Below are positions 8,907-21,314 of a stretch of 21,638 nt of DNA, piece by piece (position 1 is the stretch's first letter; every line of letters starts with the position of its first letter). The notes beneath the pieces were generated by a model. That model saw nothing but the letters and a program-made list of their open reading frames with translations, searched no databases and was not told the DNA's origin. This DNA is from a virus, in the IMG/VR virus record IMGVR_UViG_3300030943_000187, positions 1 to 21,638 of that record. One strand, given 5' to 3'. The position numbers and the translations under genes are program-made.

Positions 8907-9845
8907 ATGGGCATTATGGAAAACTTTCAAGACATTTTCAATCTCGACTCACAAGACTTCGTCGAAAAAACCACATCAAAGGAATCTGACCTTTACAAAC
9001 CAAACGCTAAAGACGGTAAAGACAACACGTACAAAGCTTTAATCAGATTCATCCCTTTTTGGAAAGACCCCAAAAAATCAAAGATCAAAAAATTCTCTTA
9101 TTGGCTAGAAGATCCATTGACTGGAGACGGTTTCTCTGTCGACTGTCCTTCTACTATCAACCAGAAATCTGTATTACAAGATACTTTCTGGAAGCTTAAG
9201 AAATCTCAATCTGTAGCAGAACAAAAACTCTCAGATAAGTTTAAGAGAAGAGAAAATTATTATGCATTAATTCAAATCTTAAAAGATGATCAACGTCCTG
9301 AAATGGTCGGTAAAATCAAGATTTTGAAATTTGGTCAAAAATTAAATGCAATAATTCAATCAGAATTGCAACCAGAGTATGGCCAACCATACAATCCATT
9401 CGACCTAATTAAAGGTAGACCAATGGCACTTCACGTTACATTGAATGCTGGGTTTAACAACTACGATCTTTCGAAATTCATTGGTGATGCATTTCCAGCA
9501 ATAATGAATAGTAAACAAATAGAAGGCACGCAAGAATCAATGCGAGCATTCTTTGAACACTTAAAAACTGCTTCACCTGACCTTTCAATGTACGATTACA
9601 GAGAATGGGATGATGACACTCACAGCAAAGTTAAAAGCATTATTGAAAATACTGTTCCTTCAATGAGAACATCAGAAAATATTGCTAGAGAATCTGCTTC
9701 TGCATCAAGAACTTCAAGACCTTCAGTAGACATCGATTTAACTCCTTCTACTGTAGACGAAAAACCTTTCGATATCAATAACATTAACTTCGATGGATTG
9801 GAAGAAGGCGGAGATTTTGAAAAAGATTTATACGCAGGACTTTAA
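8907..9845 (+). CDS. 32: gp32-like single-stranded DNA-binding protein
   Basis: 312 residues (T4 gp32: 301). It coats and protects single-stranded DNA in replication and recombination. The OB-fold core shows the gp32 pattern: YKALIRFIPFW, then the strand-rich region NYYALIQILKDDQRPEMVGKI, KILKFGQKLNAII, and ALHVTLNAGFNNYDLSKF (T4 has VKQVSGFSNYDESKF). A Ser/Thr-rich linker leads to an acidic C-terminal tail ending EEGGDFEKDLYAGL, the part that in T4 recruits partner proteins. Only one Cys (Cys80) is present, so the T4 zinc site (one His, three Cys) is absent. The 5' third uses many C-ending codons, unlike neighbouring genes, consistent with strong expression. ATG at 8907 is chosen; an ATG three codons later is possible. 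It is followed by a strong terminator. Confidence 0.88.
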   Translation: MGIMENFQDIFNLDSQDFVEKTTSKESDLYKPNAKDGKDNTYKALIRFIPFWKDPKKSKIKKFSYWLEDPLTGDGFSVDCPSTINQKSVLQDTFWKLKKSQSVAEQKLSDKFKRRENYYALIQILKDDQRPEMVGKIKILKFGQKLNAIIQSELQPEYGQPYNPFDLIKGRPMALHVTLNAGFNNYDLSKFIGDAFPAIMNSKQIEGTQESMRAFFEHLKTASPDLSMYDYREWDDDTHSKVKSIIENTVPSMRTSENIARESASASRTSRPSVDIDLTPSTVDEKPFDINNINFDGLEEGGDFEKDLYAGL

Positions 9846-9866
9846 TTTTTAATTCTGAAATATTCT

Positions 9867-9901
9867 AAAAAAGAGCATAAAGAAATTTATGCTCTTTTTT
9901 T
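9867..9901 (+). terminator. Rho-independent terminator after gp32
   Basis: A perfect 15-bp stem (9867-9881 with 9886-9900), a GAAA tetraloop and a terminal T run of seven (9895-9901). It lies 21 nt after the gp32-like stop and separates the abundant SSB transcript from the primase gene. The A-run on its left arm could also allow termination on the opposite strand. Confidence 0.9.
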
Positions 9902-9918
9902 CTCTATACACTTATTTT

Positions 9919-11070
9919 ATGGAAAATATCGAGCAAACGAATTTAGTTTTTTCTTTTACACCTATGGATGTCGAACAACCTTTCGATGATGTATCTTTAT
10001 GGCGAAAAATAGAAAAATCATTACGCAATATAGTAAATAGACGATTTGCAGATAACGTTAAACACGGTGTAAAAATGTATACTGACAGACTAGCAATAGC
10101 TTGTCCATACTGTGGTGATTCTGTACAATCTCCTTCAAAGAAACGTGGGAATATATTCTTAGATTCTGCTAACTTTCATTGCTTCAACGGTAGTTGCGAT
10201 GCACATGTATCAGTAGTTCAATTACTGAAAGATTACGGCGAACTCAACGACTATAATGCTGATGAGTTAATGTATCTTAGAAGAAAAAATAAAGAGAGCA
10301 ATAATTCAGTCTCAGGTAAAAAGATACGTATATTTCAAAGTGTAGATAATCTATTCTCAGAAGAAGCTATGAATTTGACAGTTTCTCGTGAATATTTTGT
10401 GAAAACATTACGCTTACAAGAAATTAGAGGTTCTAGAATACAAAGATATTTAGAACAACGCTTGCAGAAAGATTTTCATAAATTTGCATTCGATCCTAAA
10501 ACAGGACAACTTTATGTAATGAACTTAACTGCTGACGGTACTAGAATTCTGGGATTTCAAATAAAGACGTTCAATAAGAAGGCACCGTATATAACTTATA
10601 AAGCATCAAAAGTTCGAGAATATGTTGGATTAAGTGATGGTGACCCAGAATTGCTCGAAAAGTTAGATACAATATCTACCACATTCGGTATCATGAATAT
10701 AGATTTAGGTCGATATATCACGGTATTTGAAGGTCCATTAGATAGTTTCATTTTTCCAAATTCAGTTGGTGTATGTTCAGCTAAGAACGATTTTCCATTC
10801 GAAATAGATGAAATACGTTATTTTTACGACAATGATAAGACAGGTAAAGAATGGGCTATGAAAAAGATGAATGAAGGCTATCCAGTATTTCTCTGGAAAA
10901 AGTTCATAGAAGAAAATGAACTTTATGAATACGCATCTAAAATAAAAGACTTAAATGATTTACTTATCATGATAAAACGTCACAATCTCAAGATAAAACC
11001 TCTAGTCAATTACTTTAGTGGTAATGCTAAGGATGACGAAAGCTCACGATACGATATTATTTGGATATAA
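9919..11070 (+). CDS. 61: DNA primase, gp61-like, with zinc finger and TOPRIM domain
   Basis: 383 residues (T4 gp61: 342); it makes RNA primers for lagging-strand synthesis together with the replicative helicase. An N-terminal zinc-ribbon has CPYC at residues 62-65 and Cys88/Cys93 (HCFNGSC). The TOPRIM catalytic residues are Glu271 and Asp275 in VFEGPLDSF and the DxD motif at 304-306 (FYDNDKTG). The start at 9919 is preferred over the in-frame ATG at 9889, because 9889 lies within the terminator stem of the previous gene. The stop overlaps the following ATG (TAATG). Gene identity is good at family level; assignment to gp61 rests on the T4-type neighbours. Confidence 0.85.
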   Translation: MENIEQTNLVFSFTPMDVEQPFDDVSLWRKIEKSLRNIVNRRFADNVKHGVKMYTDRLAIACPYCGDSVQSPSKKRGNIFLDSANFHCFNGSCDAHVSVVQLLKDYGELNDYNADELMYLRRKNKESNNSVSGKKIRIFQSVDNLFSEEAMNLTVSREYFVKTLRLQEIRGSRIQRYLEQRLQKDFHKFAFDPKTGQLYVMNLTADGTRILGFQIKTFNKKAPYITYKASKVREYVGLSDGDPELLEKLDTISTTFGIMNIDLGRYITVFEGPLDSFIFPNSVGVCSAKNDFPFEIDEIRYFYDNDKTGKEWAMKKMNEGYPVFLWKKFIEENELYEYASKIKDLNDLLIMIKRHNLKIKPLVNYFSGNAKDDESSRYDIIWI

Positions 11071-11297
11071 TGAAAGAGTACATTTTAGGAATAACGGAAG
11101 ACTATAAACCTGATCATATTGACATGATTATGGAAGATAAAATAGCTACAGTTGTAGCATTTAACTGTGATTCTCTAGAAATAGAATATACAGAACTTGA
11201 AATGAGTTTTTCTGAGCCTAAATTAAAAGTTAAATCTGAACCAATAATACAACATGTCGAACTTACCTCAAGAAAATCAAAATCAGAGCTCTTCTGA
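11070..11297 (+). CDS. Small hypothetical protein between primase and uvsY
   Basis: 75 residues from the ATG at 11070, which overlaps the primase stop; a TTG at 11061 would add three residues but is less likely. The protein is acidic in its first two-thirds (MKEYILGITEDYKPD...) and more basic at its end. No domain is recognised. The last 44 nt overlap the start of the UvsY-like gene in another frame. Such small genes are common between T4-type recombination genes. Confidence 0.65.
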   Translation: MKEYILGITEDYKPDHIDMIMEDKIATVVAFNCDSLEIEYTELEMSFSEPKLKVKSEPIIQHVELTSRKSKSELF

Positions 11298-11718
11298 AAA
11301 ATCATTTGCTGATGTCTTTGCAGATGAAAGAATAGAATGGATGGAAAAACTAAAAGACACATCCGCAAGATTTAGAAAAATAGAAGATATGGCAGAAGTG
11401 CAAGTCATTCTTTATTCAGATCGACAGATAGCATTAGAATATATGTTCAAGCTTATGAGCATACATACTAAGCTTAAGAAAGTTATGTTAGAGGCTTGGA
11501 AAAAAGCATACGATAACTTAGAGAATGCAGATATACGCTATAATGACAAAGAACGTATGAAAATGGCAGATAATGCAATATCGGCAGTGAAATATAAAAC
11601 AGATACTGTAAGCAATCATATTGAATACTTCAGAGAGACAATAAAGACTATCGATAATATGATATTTGGAGTTAAACACAGAATAGATATTGAAAACTAT
11701 AAAGCAGGATTAAAATAA
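11254..11718 (+). CDS. uvsY: UvsY-like recombination mediator
   Basis: 154 residues (T4 UvsY: 137), highly helical and charged. UvsY loads the UvsX recombinase onto gp32-covered single-stranded DNA. The order of features resembles T4 UvsY: an EVQVILYSDRQI region (T4 NNVMLYSKWL), then KLKKVMLEAWKKA (T4 SIKKEMLRIEAQKK), then a long helix with KYKTDTVSNHIEYF (T4 LKVDTSLQYWGIL) and the final FGVKHRIDIENYKAG (T4 FAIKHIQDMRAFEAG). This is an alignment by eye. Location directly before uvsW supports it, since these genes are close together in T4. The first ~20 residues are Ser/Gln-rich and overlap the previous gene; the ATG at 11341 would give a 125-residue alternative. Confidence 0.72.
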   Translation: MSNLPQENQNQSSSEKSFADVFADERIEWMEKLKDTSARFRKIEDMAEVQVILYSDRQIALEYMFKLMSIHTKLKKVMLEAWKKAYDNLENADIRYNDKERMKMADNAISAVKYKTDTVSNHIEYFRETIKTIDNMIFGVKHRIDIENYKAGLK

Positions 11719-11728
11719 GATTCTTATT
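11714..11728 (+). repeat. Short perfect inverted repeat between uvsY and uvsW
   Basis: A 15-nt odd palindrome with 7-nt arms (AATAAGA, one T, TCTTATT) covers the uvsY stop codon and lies 2 nt before the uvsW start. It could form a small hairpin limiting or coupling translation of uvsW. Short and A/T-rich, so chance is possible. Confidence 0.35.
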
Positions 11729-11730
11729 GA

Positions 11731-13251
11731 ATGAAATTTAATGTAACCGAAAACTGTAAATTTTTAAGATTAATAGAAGCTACTGATTTAGAACTTGAGC
11801 AATTGCATCACAGTTTAAAGAAAAAGATCAGAGGACATTTCTATAACCCGCTAGTGAAGAAAAAGTTGTGGGATGGATCTATCTCTTTCATAAAGGATGG
11901 ATATATTCAGATTGGGTTGTGGAATGAACTATTCATTATCGGTGAGCAGTTTGGTTATCCTGTTGAAATATACGGTTTAGATAAAATAGTTGATTCAGAA
12001 TTTGATGCTCAACGCTTCAAAGATTGGTCAACAAAACATTTCGAAGGCAATAAATATCAGCCTAGAGACTATCAATTAGATGCGGCTATTGCAATCATGA
12101 AGCACAGAATCACTTCTTCTGAAATTGCAACATCATCTGGAAAGACACTTATCACTTTCTTAGTCTACGGTTATTTGAAAAGTATCGGTCAGCTAAATAA
12201 AATGCTCATTATTGTACCTAATGTTACGCTTGTAATGCAATTAAATGATGACTTTGACGAGTATAATAATGGCAAAATCGATATGCAAATTAGGATGGTA
12301 TACGGTGGAGCTAAAGATAATGATCCAAGCGCTGATATAATAGTTGGTACCTTCCAATCTTTGTCTAGAAAAACCATCGATTACTACAAAGGAATTGACG
12401 TAGTATGTGTTGATGAAGCTCACCAAGGAAAAACTGTATCAGTTAAAAATGTATTGGACAAATGTAAAGACTCCAGAGTTAGATTTGGTCTTACTGGTAC
12501 ATTATGTGTAGATAATTCTGCTGACTATTATACGATAACTGCATATTTAGGTCCTTTGGTCAATACTATTTCACCAAAATTCCTATTCGATGAGGGATAT
12601 GCTACTCCTGTAAAAGTAAAAATCATAAAACTTAACTATAAGAACACTGAAATACGGGAAAAACTTTACGAGTTAAGAAAATCGAAGGCTCAATTAGACG
12701 GTAGTCAGTTATTAGCATTAGAAAAGAAGATAGTTGTACAACATAAAGGACGTACAAGATTTATCATAGACTTATTAGCTAAAACTTCTAAGAATACGTT
12801 AGTCATGTTCTCTAATATAAAAGATAACTATGGCAGATCTATCTATGATGCATTAAGAGAAGAAACTGAAAAAGTTTGTTATTATGTAGATGGCGGTGTA
12901 AGTAAAGACCACAGAGAATATTACAAGAAAGATATGGAGAATGGAGACAATAAAATTCTTATTGCTTCATTTACTACATTCTCCACTGGTATATCGATAA
13001 AGAACATTCATAATATCGTATTCATTGAATCATACAGATCAGAAATAATCATTAAACAGTCTATCGGTAGAGGAATGAGATTATTAGATGGAAAAGAAAA
13101 GGTAAATATTGTCGATATAGTTGATGATTTATCTTGGCAAACAAAATCTGATAAACAGAGTGACAATTATCTACTCAAGCATGGTAAAGCAAGACTAGAA
13201 TTCTATAAGCAGTATACTGAAGAGATTTCAATGCATAATGTTTCATTGTAA
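11731..13251 (+). CDS. uvsW: UvsW-type DNA/RNA helicase
   Basis: 506 residues, matching T4 UvsW (about 500). It is an SF2 helicase that unwinds R-loops and migrates and reverses branched DNA, shifting replication from origin- to recombination-dependent initiation. A UvsW-type N-terminal domain (about 1-100, with FYNPLVKKKLWDGSISFI) precedes the helicase core. Motifs: YQPRDYQLDA (about 109-118), Walker A ATSSGKT (133-139), DEAH (228-231), GLTGTL (about 254-259), and motif VI QSIGRGMRL in the last third, followed by IVDIVDDLSW. All core motifs are intact. The gene starts 12 nt after uvsY, and its stop overlaps a possible start at 13251. Confidence 0.92.
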   Translation: MKFNVTENCKFLRLIEATDLELEQLHHSLKKKIRGHFYNPLVKKKLWDGSISFIKDGYIQIGLWNELFIIGEQFGYPVEIYGLDKIVDSEFDAQRFKDWSTKHFEGNKYQPRDYQLDAAIAIMKHRITSSEIATSSGKTLITFLVYGYLKSIGQLNKMLIIVPNVTLVMQLNDDFDEYNNGKIDMQIRMVYGGAKDNDPSADIIVGTFQSLSRKTIDYYKGIDVVCVDEAHQGKTVSVKNVLDKCKDSRVRFGLTGTLCVDNSADYYTITAYLGPLVNTISPKFLFDEGYATPVKVKIIKLNYKNTEIREKLYELRKSKAQLDGSQLLALEKKIVVQHKGRTRFIIDLLAKTSKNTLVMFSNIKDNYGRSIYDALREETEKVCYYVDGGVSKDHREYYKKDMENGDNKILIASFTTFSTGISIKNIHNIVFIESYRSEIIIKQSIGRGMRLLDGKEKVNIVDIVDDLSWQTKSDKQSDNYLLKHGKARLEFYKQYTEEISMHNVSL

Positions 13252-14162: not shown

Positions 14163-15368
14163 ATGGGTGGAAATTCAAGAATAATAGATAGACAAACAGG
14201 AGATATTAAAGGTTATGCCGAAAAAGTAGATCTGACCATGTTCAATAGAACAGAATTGACTCGACGTATGTTGGGTCTTTTTTCGTATATAAATGTTGAA
14301 TTCTTTAAGAATTACGGCGTATTTATTTGGAAGTTCGAAGACTTAACTGAAGCATTAGTTTTTACAGGTAGTTCAAAACACTTATTCAACTCTGAAATCA
14401 CAGATCAAGATTTCATAAAGCATAAACCCATAATCGGTGATATAGACATTGCATTTCCAAAAGATTATTATACTGATCTTGCTGAATTGTTACAAAGCCT
14501 TGAAGGTGAAACATTAGTAGAAGGCATAACATATCTTGGACAAGACCGCAATAATTTCAATACTACTTTTCTGTCAGTATTCGAATACAAATCTGGCAAA
14601 GATAAGGTTAACATTCAGATAGACTTTGAATCGAATGAGTGGGATATGGAGAAAAATGAACCTACAGAATGGACATTATTTTCTCATAGTTCTTCATGGG
14701 AAGACATATGTCTTGGATTCAAAGGTGTTCATCATAAATTCTTACTTATAAATCTTGTTCGAGCATTATCTTCTAATCCAAATGCAGTTGTTGCTACTAA
14801 ATCATCTACACCAGACAATATAAAATTATGTACGGGTAAGAAAGCTGATTTAGTTCCGAGAATGTTAGCATTTTCTGTTGACAAAGGATTACGTCAAAAA
14901 TACGCTCCCATGATAGATAAGAATGGCTATAATGTATATAAAGATGGAAAATTAGTTATTCAAGAGATTCCAGTCGAGAATTCTACTTATACAACAGCTG
15001 TGAGTGAAATCGTATATGGATTAGTTGATAGTGTCTTCGATATCTATAAACCCGGAAATGACACATGTATTCTAGAAGTTAGTAAAGAAGAGATAGAAGA
15101 CTTCTATTCAGTTATAGGTCTATTAGATTTTATGAAGAAACGTCTATTAAGAGAAGATATAGCAAAATGTTTCATGTTTATTGTACATGAAAATCTTTTT
15201 GGAACACATGCACAACTACTAGAAAAAGAGGACTTGGAGCTAGATCGAAAAATAAAAGACAAGCTTTGGATAGCGTTAATGAATAAATTTTTCTATTTGC
15301 ATGATGAATATTACGATATAGTACTAACTTTAAGAAAAAAATATTATCAAGATAATGCTAAGATATAA
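14163..15368 (+). CDS. Pol-beta superfamily nucleotidyltransferase-like protein
   Basis: 401 residues. The pol-beta-type nucleotidyltransferase signature is complete: Gly69-Ser70 in FTGSSKHLF, the metal-binding pair Asp93/Asp95 in IIGDIDIAFP, and a third Asp154 at the end of the strand KVNIQIDFE. A helical HHKFLLINLVRAL segment (about 190-203) follows, as is common in template-independent members. The family transfers nucleotides to RNA 3' ends, proteins or small molecules; the substrate here is not visible. It starts a packed gene train with a Cys-rich small protein and a ligase/NMNAT fusion, which hints at nucleic-acid end repair. The downstream gene overlaps its 3' end by 14 nt. The fold call is fairly firm; the function is open. 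Confidence 0.7.
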   Translation: MGGNSRIIDRQTGDIKGYAEKVDLTMFNRTELTRRMLGLFSYINVEFFKNYGVFIWKFEDLTEALVFTGSSKHLFNSEITDQDFIKHKPIIGDIDIAFPKDYYTDLAELLQSLEGETLVEGITYLGQDRNNFNTTFLSVFEYKSGKDKVNIQIDFESNEWDMEKNEPTEWTLFSHSSSWEDICLGFKGVHHKFLLINLVRALSSNPNAVVATKSSTPDNIKLCTGKKADLVPRMLAFSVDKGLRQKYAPMIDKNGYNVYKDGKLVIQEIPVENSTYTTAVSEIVYGLVDSVFDIYKPGNDTCILEVSKEEIEDFYSVIGLLDFMKKRLLREDIAKCFMFIVHENLFGTHAQLLEKEDLELDRKIKDKLWIALMNKFFYLHDEYYDIVLTLRKKYYQDNAKI

Positions 15369-15570
15369 TGACATATTGCATGCACAAAAACGTGGAAAAC
15401 GTTGGGATGCATTGAAACTTACATATAAATCACTGAACCAGTTAAGTAAAACACATTCATTAAAATGCAACTGTTCACAATGTAGAATGATCACATATTT
15501 GAAAAGATTAGAGAATAAACAACAAAGATTGCAGCTAAAAACAGATTTAAAGAACGAATTGAATGATTAA
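15355..15570 (+). CDS. Small basic protein with CxCxxC motif
   Basis: 71 residues, strongly basic (many Lys, Arg and Gln). A compact Cys cluster KCNCSQC (Cys38, Cys40, Cys43) with His34 nearby could bind zinc, suggesting an RNA- or DNA-binding mini-protein. It overlaps the nucleotidyltransferase gene by 14 nt and the ligase-fusion gene by 8 nt, so it is probably translated together with both and may act with them. No family recognised. Confidence 0.65.
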   Translation: MLRYNDILHAQKRGKRWDALKLTYKSLNQLSKTHSLKCNCSQCRMITYLKRLENKQQRLQLKTDLKNELND

Positions 15571-17077
15571 AGGTATGTTAGATTTGTCTATCAAAAACGT
15601 AATGAAAGTGATAGACAATGAAGAAAAAGCTGAAAAATTCTTAGATGAAGAATTCGATACTATATCTGAAAAGATAGACGGTATAAAAATAAATATGTAC
15701 AGAAAGTATGCACCATGGAATGCTGAAGATCTGTTTTCTAATTTTGTCATCTCTTATAAAAAGATGATTCTATATCCAGAAGATATGTCAGAATATTTGT
15801 TTGGCATTCTTAAATTAGATATTGAAAACGAATCTATAGGAGATGCACAATTCTATTACATATTTGAATTACTTAGAAAGTCAGAGAAATATTTATCGAT
15901 GCTTCCTCAAAATACTGAATTCTTTTTTGAATATGTGGTAAGAAAACCTACTATTTCTAGAGAATATAAAAAGCTTCATAAACTTATACTTTTAGGGTAT
16001 GCTAATTCCTCAGCTATAGCGCGATTTGGTTATGTTACCACTTTTCCAAATCAGATGGAAACTATAAATAATAAAGAATATGCAGCTCTTATAGGATGTG
16101 ATACTCCTAAAGTATTTTTTAAGAATTTTAAGTTTCATACTAATCATCTATTACCTCATGGTGTCTCTATAACTAATTTATCGAAAATAACTGCTATCAG
16201 GAAATATCTACTTGACTTGCCGTCAGCTTATGGTGGCAAAATAGAAGGGGTGGTATTACAGAAAGGGAATGAATATTACAAATTTGTTCAAGATGACCAA
16301 TACGATAAAATCCATAGAGCAACTATAAAAGATAAATATGAAATGCCAAAAGATGAAGAAAATCTTTATTTTCTTAAATTGAAGGCACTAGCAAATAAGA
16401 CATTTGAAGATTTTGCAATACATACAGATATTCAAAATCCGGAGAAATGTTTAGCTATACTTTCTAGTTTAGCTTATATGAGAAAGCAAGATCTGCCTTT
16501 TCATTCGAAAAAGACGAATTTCCAAATTAGAGAAGATTTCTTTCATGTTTTAAAATACTTATATATTCATAAACATGATGATAACACGAATACTCTATTC
16601 ATTGGTAGAATGCAACCTCCAACCTCTATACATATAAACATAATCAAGAATCTGTTATTAAAGTCAAAAGGAGTATGTGTGGCTATAGTAAAAGGCAAAA
16701 AATCTGAACAGAAAAATAATCCTTTTAGTTTCGAAACGATAAAAGAAATTATAGAATACGTATTCCCTGTAGGTGTAGAAGTAATAGAAGTATCTACTGG
16801 CAATATTATAACTGCTATTAATACGTCGACTCTTGTAATATCGAAAGTAGCAGCAGGATCTGATAGAATCGAAACATACAGAAATCAACTCTTAAATAAC
16901 CCTGAGATACAAGTTATAGAATTTGTAAGAGAAGATGATGTATCAGCTACTAAACTTCGAAAAGCACTTGCAGACAAAGATATAGAAACTTTTAAAAAAT
17001 ATACTGATGAACAAACATGGATATTCTATGAAAGCTTGCAATCCTTGTACACAGAAAACAATATTTGTATTAGCTAA
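15563..17077 (+). CDS. Fused polynucleotide ligase and NMNAT-like nucleotidyltransferase
   Basis: 504 residues with two domains. The N-terminal domain (about 1-265) has covalent nucleotidyltransferase/ligase motifs: SEKIDG with candidate lysine Lys37 (motif I), FFFEYV around Glu123 (motif III), KIEGVVLQ (motif IV) and YYKFV with Lys240 (motif V), as in RNA ligases. The C-terminal domain (about 343-480) is an HxGH-superfamily nucleotidyltransferase: FIGRMQPPTSIHINI with Thr354/His357, AGSDR (431-435) and SATKLR (461-466), the pattern of NadM/NadR-type NMN adenylyltransferases. The first domain would seal RNA or DNA ends; the second would make NAD or another adenylated or cytidylated product. 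Which substrates are used is inference. It overlaps both neighbours. The start at 15563 is chosen; ATG at 15575 is possible. Confidence 0.82.
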   Translation: MIKGMLDLSIKNVMKVIDNEEKAEKFLDEEFDTISEKIDGIKINMYRKYAPWNAEDLFSNFVISYKKMILYPEDMSEYLFGILKLDIENESIGDAQFYYIFELLRKSEKYLSMLPQNTEFFFEYVVRKPTISREYKKLHKLILLGYANSSAIARFGYVTTFPNQMETINNKEYAALIGCDTPKVFFKNFKFHTNHLLPHGVSITNLSKITAIRKYLLDLPSAYGGKIEGVVLQKGNEYYKFVQDDQYDKIHRATIKDKYEMPKDEENLYFLKLKALANKTFEDFAIHTDIQNPEKCLAILSSLAYMRKQDLPFHSKKTNFQIREDFFHVLKYLYIHKHDDNTNTLFIGRMQPPTSIHINIIKNLLLKSKGVCVAIVKGKKSEQKNNPFSFETIKEIIEYVFPVGVEVIEVSTGNIITAINTSTLVISKVAAGSDRIETYRNQLLNNPEIQVIEFVREDDVSATKLRKALADKDIETFKKYTDEQTWIFYESLQSLYTENNICIS

Positions 17078-17318
17078 AAATGTCTCTGATTTTTATCGGT
17101 ATATGACCACGTTAGAATATACAGATGATGCAATTTATTACATAACGTGTATGGGAAATTTACGAGGAAGACGCAATCCTGATGAAATAGTTTTTCTAGA
17201 CAATTTTTATGAAAGTAAAGATACAATAGAAGCATTCTGGCAATTAATGGATAGATATCCGAATTTTTTCATTTTCAAGAATATAAAAACACAATATACA
17301 AAAATACCGATAATATGA
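17028..17318 (+). CDS. Small hypothetical protein between ligase fusion and thioredoxin
   Basis: 96 residues from ATG 17028; an upstream in-frame ATG at 17007 adds seven. The protein has an alternating alpha/beta look (KTIFVLAKNVSDFYRYM, DAIYYITCMGNLRGRRN, EIVFLDNFYES), with strands suggesting a small Rossmann-like or NTPase-related fold, but no catalytic motif is recognised. The first 50 nt overlap the end of the ligase fusion, and its stop overlaps the thioredoxin start (ATGA), so the three are probably translated together. Confidence 0.65.
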   Translation: MKACNPCTQKTIFVLAKNVSDFYRYMTTLEYTDDAIYYITCMGNLRGRRNPDEIVFLDNFYESKDTIEAFWQLMDRYPNFFIFKNIKTQYTKIPII

Positions 17319-17617
17319 AAGAAGAAGTAATGAAACAATTTTTAGAAGATACCGAAAAGGGTAACGTAATAGTAGATTTTTGGGCTACTTGGTGTGGTCC
17401 TTGTAAGACAATTTCACCTATTTTAGATGAGTTATCTAAAGAAGCTGGTATCAAAGTGGTTAAAATTAACGTAGATGACATTTCAAATACTGCCCTTTTA
17501 AAGAAGTTTAATGTTAGAAATATTCCTACATTAATTTGTTTCAAAGATGGTGTAGAAATAGACAAGAAAATAGGGATGCAAAGTAAAGAAGCTTTATTAA
17601 CGGTTTTTTCTAAGTAA
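17315..17617 (+). CDS. trxA: Thioredoxin
   Basis: 100 residues, close to standard thioredoxin length. The active site is FWATWCGPCK with redox Cys27 and Cys30, preceded by the VIVDFWA strand. The VRNIPTLICFKDG segment supplies the cis-proline, and a terminal helix follows. Thioredoxin reduces disulfides in the cytoplasm. In phages it commonly serves ribonucleotide reductase or acts as a polymerase accessory; no reductase gene is in this window. The start overlaps the previous stop by ATGA, and the next gene begins 2 nt after its stop. Confidence 0.93.
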   Translation: MKEEVMKQFLEDTEKGNVIVDFWATWCGPCKTISPILDELSKEAGIKVVKINVDDISNTALLKKFNVRNIPTLICFKDGVEIDKKIGMQSKEALLTVFSK

Positions 17618-20111: not shown

Positions 20112-21314
20112 ATGGGAGAAATTAAATATGCAGCTATAGTACCGCTTATCGGCGGTATGATCTTAGGAGCACAGAAGGCCACACACGGTCAAAAACCAGA
20201 GTTCATTCTCAGTTACCCTCCATTCTTAGGAAACGATAAGATTCTTACAGATTACATGCCTGAAGTACCTTATCACACTATTGATCCTGAGACTAATCTG
20301 TTACCTACAGATACTTCATTACCTGAAGTTGATTTTATCAGTGCATTATGTCCTTGTGCTGGTCTTTCTCAATTAAATTCTGCTGCATCTAGAGGTGCTA
20401 ATGCTCCCCAAAATGAATGGATGTATAAGACTGCTGAGTTTGTTCTTGAACAGATAAAACCGAAAGTATTTTGGGGAGAAAATGCTCCAGCTCTTTATGG
20501 TGTTACTGGATTACCCGTAGCTGAACGTTTAAGAGAAATAAGTGAACGTAATGGATATTCTATGTCATTACTTAGAACTTCTAGTACATTGCACGGGGTT
20601 CCACAGAAAAGACAACGTACATTTTACTTTTTCTGGAAAGGTACAAATGCTCCTATTCTAAATTGGTACAGTAGAGCATTACCTACACTTAAAGAATATT
20701 TTATGCAAATGCCCGTTGCTTGGCTAGATACAGATGAAGTTGAAACTAAAACTTTAGCTCTAGTTAAAGATCCGCTATATCAGTGGCTTAGACATGAACA
20801 TGGAGACGACTGGCGTTCACATGTACTAAAAATGGGAAAATCGTTAATGGATGTAGTACTATTAAGCGGTAAAATAGATGACTATTTAGAATTCGTGAAG
20901 AATAGTGATGATTATTCTGAAGAGGCTTATAATAGAGCTAAACATGCTAAACATAAAAGAGAGATCGGAAAGAACTATTGGGATTTCAGTCCATTTATAC
21001 CAGCCGAATATACAGGAGCATTGACAGGAGCTAGAATGAATATGATCCACCCATTTGAAGATAGATTTATGACATATAGAGAATTAGCACATCTTATGGG
21101 TCTTCCTATCGATATGAAAATACCAACAGAAGCACCAGGTAAGATTTTTCAAAACGTGCCCTCTATGACTTCTGCAGATTGGACTACTGAAGTTATCAAA
21201 TACATAAATGGAGAGTTAGAAGACTCTGGTGTAAAGTTTTTGCATCAAGATAATATTCAACAAAAGATTGAATTAGAACAACTAAAATCTAAAGAGATAA
21301 CAGCACTATTTTGA
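20112..21314 (+). CDS. C5-cytosine DNA methyltransferase-like protein
   Basis: 400 residues. C5-cytosine methyltransferase motifs in order: motif IV LCPCAGLSQ with candidate catalytic Cys82; motif VI ENAP (123-126); motif VIII VPQKRQR (163-169); motif IX FMTYRELAHLMGLP (about 319-332); motif X FQNVPS (346-351). The region between VIII and IX (about 170-315) would be the target-recognition domain. The SAM-binding motif I, normally D-L-F-x-G-x-G-G, is unusual: IVPLIGGMILGAQKA keeps the Gly-Gly but lacks the Asp-Leu-Phe start. The role is probably methylation of phage cytosines against host restriction. The target site cannot be read from sequence. It is divergent from the endolysin across a 165-nt gap with no convincing ORF. 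Confidence 0.82.
   Translation: MGEIKYAAIVPLIGGMILGAQKATHGQKPEFILSYPPFLGNDKILTDYMPEVPYHTIDPETNLLPTDTSLPEVDFISALCPCAGLSQLNSAASRGANAPQNEWMYKTAEFVLEQIKPKVFWGENAPALYGVTGLPVAERLREISERNGYSMSLLRTSSTLHGVPQKRQRTFYFFWKGTNAPILNWYSRALPTLKEYFMQMPVAWLDTDEVETKTLALVKDPLYQWLRHEHGDDWRSHVLKMGKSLMDVVLLSGKIDDYLEFVKNSDDYSEEAYNRAKHAKHKREIGKNYWDFSPFIPAEYTGALTGARMNMIHPFEDRFMTYRELAHLMGLPIDMKIPTEAPGKIFQNVPSMTSADWTTEVIKYINGELEDSGVKFLHQDNIQQKIELEQLKSKEITALF

Follow-up and report, generated by a model that had tools for sequence, protein, structure and literature searches.

The gene at positions 15563 to 17077 (+) of the window, the 21,638-nucleotide stretch of viral DNA analysed here (IMG/VR record IMGVR_UViG_3300030943_000187, positions 1 to 21,638), is an open frame of 504 amino acids in which a ligase is fused to a nucleotidyltransferase (NTase) of the HIGH superfamily. 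It belongs to PHROG 27149, a real, old and widespread family of such fusions that is unannotated. The fusion is proposed to do the sealing in a phage module that repairs nucleic-acid ends, for which we infer that the substrate is most likely RNA; a probability of about 0.55 is given to this reading. The domains, their conserved catalytic residues, the association with neighbouring genes and the reshuffling of domains between phages are shown by the analysis.

Host defences cut RNA and phages mend it, with known repair kits being made up of kinases, phosphatases, ligases, and nucleotide-adding enzymes. The recurrent extra part here is the HIGH nucleotidyltransferase, which is fused either to the ligase or to a nucleotide-adding enzyme, and is carried by phages, many of them unrelated, that infect Campylobacter, Vibrio, and numerous uncultured hosts; nearly all of these module proteins are annotated as 'hypothetical'. 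The association of ligase, HIGH domain, and NTase has no description in the literature searched, a search outside which the main RNA-repair review lies, and the module is probably an undescribed phage RNA end-repair kit.

The fusion gene and its relatives

PHROG 27149, of which the function is unknown, matches the whole 504 amino acid protein from end to end (E 2.9e-57), and the reverse strand opposite the gene is full of stops. Complete fusions with 30-34 % identity over their full length were found by tblastn in phages of Campylobacter (CP220, CPt10, CC_R7, and others) and of Vibrio (pv27, Va1, phiKT1024, and others), in all of which the product is annotated as hypothetical. Due to the full-span family match and these full-length relatives, the fusion is not a chance joining of two frames. 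About 20 further IMG/VR contigs carry relatives, as identified in an alignment-based scan. No homologues of the fusion were found in cells, based on a pattern scan and tblastn of GTDB genome contigs; the GTDB and IMG/VR scans used short patterns, by which distant relatives are missed. No near-identical phage was found in GenBank. In the record of Campylobacter phage IBB_35 a frameshift divides the fusion gene between two ORFs (locus L008, 8001-9513), and in another genome (G007, the record of locus L053) the fusion frame is 650 amino acids long.

An AlphaFold2 model of the fusion, made with 19 alignment rows, has a pLDDT of 86.8 and a pTM of 0.83. When this was used in a structure search of BFVD, the viral relative A0A410T6C5 matched over the full length (TM 0.78/0.81), followed by many viral RNA ligases, several of them labelled Rnl2, and by cytidyltransferase-like proteins. 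The earlier note on this DNA had described a polynucleotide-ligase-type domain and an NMNAT-fold domain in one chain, and this is supported by the motifs, the family match, and the model. All of the motifs that it named are present: EKIDG (K37), EGVV (E228), K240, GRMQPPTSIH (348-357), AGSDR (431-435), and SATKLR (461-466).

The ligase half

Residues 1-338 (15563..16576, +) have a T4 RNA ligase 2-like fold and are supported as an Rnl2-like covalent nucleotidyltransferase (ligase) domain, an assignment that leans on the predicted structure. In the model, a nucleotidyltransferase core is followed by a mostly helical C-terminal part, with helices at 249-257, 263-285, 293-306, and 319-337. Motif I, EKIDG (15668..15682, +), contains K37, the predicted lysyl-AMP residue; a motif III-like NTEFFFEYV (15911..15937, +) contains E123; motif IV is EGVV (16244..16255, +); and K240 (16280..16282, +) is the motif V lysine. 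Conservation was counted over 43 relatives, which are partly non-independent, and K37, D39, G40, K42, K66, E123, E228, G229, K240, and R252 are invariant in 43/43.

Comparison of the N-terminal half with the PDB using Foldseek identified T4 RNA ligase 2 (2hvr; E 2.7e-5, prob 1.00), although the match is to a predicted model only and the rmsd of the two-domain superposition is large. By profile, the Pfam RNA_ligase family matches the family members at loci L060 (E 1.2e-4) and L054 (E 8.3e-4), but L060 scores 22.8 bits against the PF09414 cut-off of 27, and the window protein has no PF09414 match at E<=1. The domain is therefore labelled 'Rnl2-like' rather than 'Rnl2'. Alignment of the ligase half with a phage Rnl2 alignment by hhalign scored 23.4, where the maximum of shuffled controls was 22.9 (n=40); with this borderline score, the ligase half cannot be assigned from its sequence alone, and the closeness to the shuffled controls and the missing PF09414 match of the window protein count against the RNA end-repair reading. 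Single-sequence hhalign gave no match of the family to T4 Rnl2, Rnl1, or gp30. T4 RNA ligase 2 (gp24.1) and other Rnl2 proteins share with the fusion the KxDG motif I, the motif III glutamate, the EGxV motif IV, the motif V lysine, and the predicted fold, including its helical C-terminal part. They differ in that the similarity of the fusion to them is near the detection limit, the fusion has one motif V lysine, and the ligase here is fused to a HIGH domain and encoded beside a Pol-beta-type NTase.

The HIGH nucleotidyltransferase half

Profile and fold matches support residues 339-504 (16577..17074, +) as a nucleotidyltransferase of the HIGH superfamily. The HIGH motif, GRMQPPTSIH (16604..16633, +), is in the (T/H)xxH form, with H357 in 43/43 relatives and T, S, or H at position 354 in 43/43. 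The AGSDR motif (16853..16867, +) retains D434 in 36/43 and R435 in 39/43. In SATKLR (16943..16960, +), which is an SxTxxR motif, S461 is present in 42/43 and T or S at 463 in 43/43, however R466 is kept in 14/43 only and lost in the other 29. Substituted catalytic residues in close homologues, which the earlier note had named as evidence against its reading, are thus seen in part: the ligase residues and H357 are invariant, whereas the arginine of SxTxxR has been lost from most relatives.

This loss could mean that in those 29 relatives the HIGH site is for binding only, which counts against the RNA end-repair reading. Extended to the family, this becomes the proposal that the HIGH half has no catalytic activity or is a sensor, binding a nucleotide or an end and positioning or regulating the ligase. 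The loss of the arginine is consistent with this, and so is motif 1, where HxGH has drifted to TxxH and some of the family have insertions. It is nevertheless considered improbable, given the retention of the histidine in 43/43, S461 in 42/43, and T/S463 in 43/43, and the canonical HxGH and ISGTxMR of one clade. In addition, the arginine is missing from some known HIGH enzymes, being lysine in CoaD and isoleucine in TagD.

The 'NMNAT' label is not backed. The fold is that of an NMNAT, as had been suggested, but the scores do not support membership of an NMNAT family: the nearest NMNAT subfamily model gives 26.3 bits, where the cut-off is 127, and the NadM model gives 30 bits, where it is 449. 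CoaD (phosphopantetheine adenylyltransferase) is as close to the C-terminal half as NMNAT, or closer, by both profile and fold, with Foldseek E values against the PDB of 1.2e-7 for CoaD and 5.7e-7 for NadM. In Pfam the only match was to CTP_transf_like, below threshold, and two 'cytidyltransferase' PHROGs match weakly. CoaD and NadM share with this half the fold and the (T/H)xxH and SxTxx(R) motifs; unlike them, the HIGH half here is far below the NMNAT cut-offs, lacks the arginine in most relatives, and has as its partner a ligase, not Nudix or kinase domains.

The earlier note had also inferred a possible NAD supply. On this explanation, the HIGH half would be a genuine NMN adenylyltransferase. 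It would restore NAD in the course of infection, or supply it to a ligase or RNA-end enzyme that uses NAD, and would be tethered to the ligase for convenience or channelling. Some of the best profile matches of the C-terminal half are to NMNAT models, though far below cut-off, its fold is close to that of NadM, and NAD salvage is encoded by phages (PMC9503650). However, CoaD scores equally well or better, most relatives have no SxTxxR arginine, and a separate NAD-binding Ia-type domain is not apparent in the model. Furthermore, NadV was present in every phage with NadM in a published survey (PMC9503650), whereas NadV/NAMPT was found in only 4/19 records carrying the present family, many of these records being fragments, and KptA was found in 0/19. 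NAD supply is therefore not favoured and is considered unlikely. KptA-linked NAD use was rejected, based on the absence of KptA from 19/19 records.

The partner nucleotidyltransferase

Directly upstream of the fusion is a gene for a protein of 401 amino acids (14163..15368, +; PHROG 19290), which was missed in the earlier account of this locus, as was the kinase of some relatives described below. Its GS...DxD...D/E signature and its fold place it in the Pol-beta nucleotidyltransferase superfamily. The GS (G69 and S70; 14367..14372, +) and the catalytic DxD within GDID (D93 and D95; 14436..14447, +) are invariant in 15 rows, and in DFE (14622..14630, +; 15 rows) D154 is likely the third catalytic acid, with E156 also invariant. 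The model has a pLDDT of 88.6 and its best fold matches are to Pol-beta (E 2.6e-3, prob 0.99).

A known NTase of the Pol-beta type that is associated with phage RNA ligases is RlaP (PF10127). In Pfam, however, the window NTase has no match at E<=1 and 15 relatives have none at E<=0.1, and true RlaP genes are present at other loci in 4/19 records. The identification of the partner as RlaP was therefore rejected.

Some variants of the partner gene were seen. One genome (G007) has three Pol-beta-type NTase paralogues, and at locus L070 (6001-8649) the NTase carries a fused C-terminal region of 500 residues, the end of which matches PHROG 22706, of unknown function. In the window, an ORF of 71 amino acids with a CxCxxC motif (15355..15570, +) overlaps both the NTase and fusion genes and was seen only in this phage.

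Gene association and reshuffled architectures

Loci were found by a scan with the NTase family (PHROG 19290) and then checked for the fusion, giving 62 distinct loci, some of which are closely related to each other and many of which are in fragmentary records. NTase and fusion occur together in 39/62, in 38 on the same strand and in 36 within 2.1 kb, and in 15 loci the genes abut or overlap, with a gap of <=10 bp. A ligase and an NTase encoded together are a feature of RNA-repair systems. Among 19 large records, the NTase is present in 19, one with a degenerate trace only, and the fusion in 18, the other having the HIGH domain only. In the Campylobacter phages the two genes share a genome but are far apart, which counts against the RNA end-repair reading. 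Ligase, HIGH domain, and NTase have correlated pairwise distances (r 0.64-0.76; 0/2000 permutations in a Mantel test). This would fit parts that are inherited together, although shared phage phylogeny alone could also yield it.

In 11 loci a P-loop kinase family is beside or fused to the module; its matches to PHROG 505 and AAA_33 point to a weak relationship with polynucleotide kinases. Kinase, ligase, and HIGH domain are in one ORF at L060 (7209-9179), kinase and NTase are in one ORF at L036 (3988-5697), and the kinase is a separate gene at L012, L024, L026, L028, L042, L043, L044, L058, and L062. Phage RNA repair has been reported to combine a ligase with a nucleotide-adding NTase, usually RlaP, and a kinase (PMC7824862). 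The kinase and ligase logic of T4 Pnkp/Rnl1 tRNA repair is shared only by the relatives with the kinase, and the module differs from it in having two further NTases, one of Pol-beta type and one of the HIGH superfamily. The 59.7-kb contig of this phage, which carries the same fusion gene, yielded no kinase, and tRNA genes are near the module in only 2/39 loci, both of which count against the RNA end-repair reading. PADLOC gave no defence-system match.

Other loci have different combinations, in which, apart from L060 and L036, the ligases were called by eye from their motifs. At L089 and L090, NTase and HIGH domain are in one ORF (PHROG 19290 with PHROG 3041/395), adjoining a gene with the ligase motifs EKTDGS and EGMVV. 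At L080-L082 the ligase-like and HIGH genes are split and overlapping, and at L083 and L085 a further ligase-like gene (KVDG, EGVV/EGYV) comes after that for the NTase.

A comparable pair is found in cyanophages, where a 'cytidyltransferase' (PHROG 395/3041) and DUF6267 (PHROG 455) likewise bring a HIGH NTase next to a protein that is ligase-like from motifs identified by eye (KWDG, PEGYV). In S-CAM4 the DUF6267 ligase-like gene and the cytidyltransferase gene overlap, and PHROG 455 (764 positions) matches both types of protein. The pair differs in that DUF6267 is a different ligase-like family and no Pol-beta NTase of the partner type was seen beside it. DUF6267 (PF19782; e.g. L035, 4870-6087) is present in 466 phage records, mostly of cyanophages, and from its motifs may be an unrecognised ligase family.

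Repair of DNA has to be weighed against repair of RNA. In a DNA repair or recombination role, the module would mend phage DNA ends by Pol-beta gap filling and nick sealing. The Pol-beta fold matches are to DNA polymerases, and the window genes lie among those for replication, T4-like genes at 8907-13251 encoding a gp32-like SSB, a primase, and a UvsW-like helicase. However, among solved ligases T4 RNA ligase 2 comes closest, rather than any DNA ligase, and the Pol-beta match is weak, an RNA-tailing enzyme being equally possible. A separate ATP-dependent DNA ligase is encoded elsewhere in 11/20 records, which makes it unlikely that the fusion serves as the replicative ligase. Taken with this evidence, a DNA role is given a low probability.

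Proposed end-repair steps

In the favoured reading, that of RNA end repair, the Pol-beta-type NTase would first restore nucleotides missing from the 3′ end, an order of steps that is presumed. In some relatives the P-loop kinase would phosphorylate the 5′ end. The T4 RNA ligase 2-like half would then take AMP onto K37, transfer it to the 5′-phosphate, and seal this end to the 3′-OH. A further nucleotidyl transfer, linked to the ligase and NTase system, may be performed by the HIGH domain.

In NMNAT-type chemistry, a 5′-phosphate is joined to a nucleotide via a 5′-5′ pyrophosphate; the same chemistry on RNA gives App-RNA, which is the ligation intermediate. From this chemistry and the gene association, it is tentatively suggested that the HIGH domain acts at the 5′-phosphate end to make 5′-5′ pyrophosphate (App) RNA, or to undo it by pyrophosphorolysis, rather than making free NAD; this is the least secure element of the favoured reading, possible, if doubtful. 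Direct action of the HIGH domain on the 5′ ends of nucleic acids, adding a nucleotide to the 5′-phosphate of broken RNA or reversing abortive App-RNA, is a rather doubtful proposition. Were it true, there would be a lysine-independent route to App-RNA, and a ligation mechanism with two active sites that has not been described before. The pairing of ligase and HIGH domain, which recurs in several arrangements and with ligase-like families that are unrelated, would in that case be a strategy general among phages. A HIGH site working on RNA ends would add a new nucleic-acid ligation step and possibly a reagent.

Other genes near the fusion

In Vibrio phage pv27 (L006), a tRNA nucleotidyltransferase gene (1-1082) is about 7 kb upstream of the fusion, and just 3′ of the fusion a gene at 9470-10264 is PD-(D/E)XK nuclease-like by eye (GVD...EIK), without a profile match. 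In the window, an ORF of 103 amino acids (17007-17318) shares 71 bases with the end of the fusion gene and precedes a thioredoxin gene (17315-17617; Pfam E 1.2e-23). Further downstream, 18389-19270 matches PHROG 10081, labelled 'transposase' (E 1.5e-13), without a Pfam match, and 20112-21314 encodes a C-5 cytosine DNA methyltransferase (Pfam DNA_methylase, E 1.6e-17).
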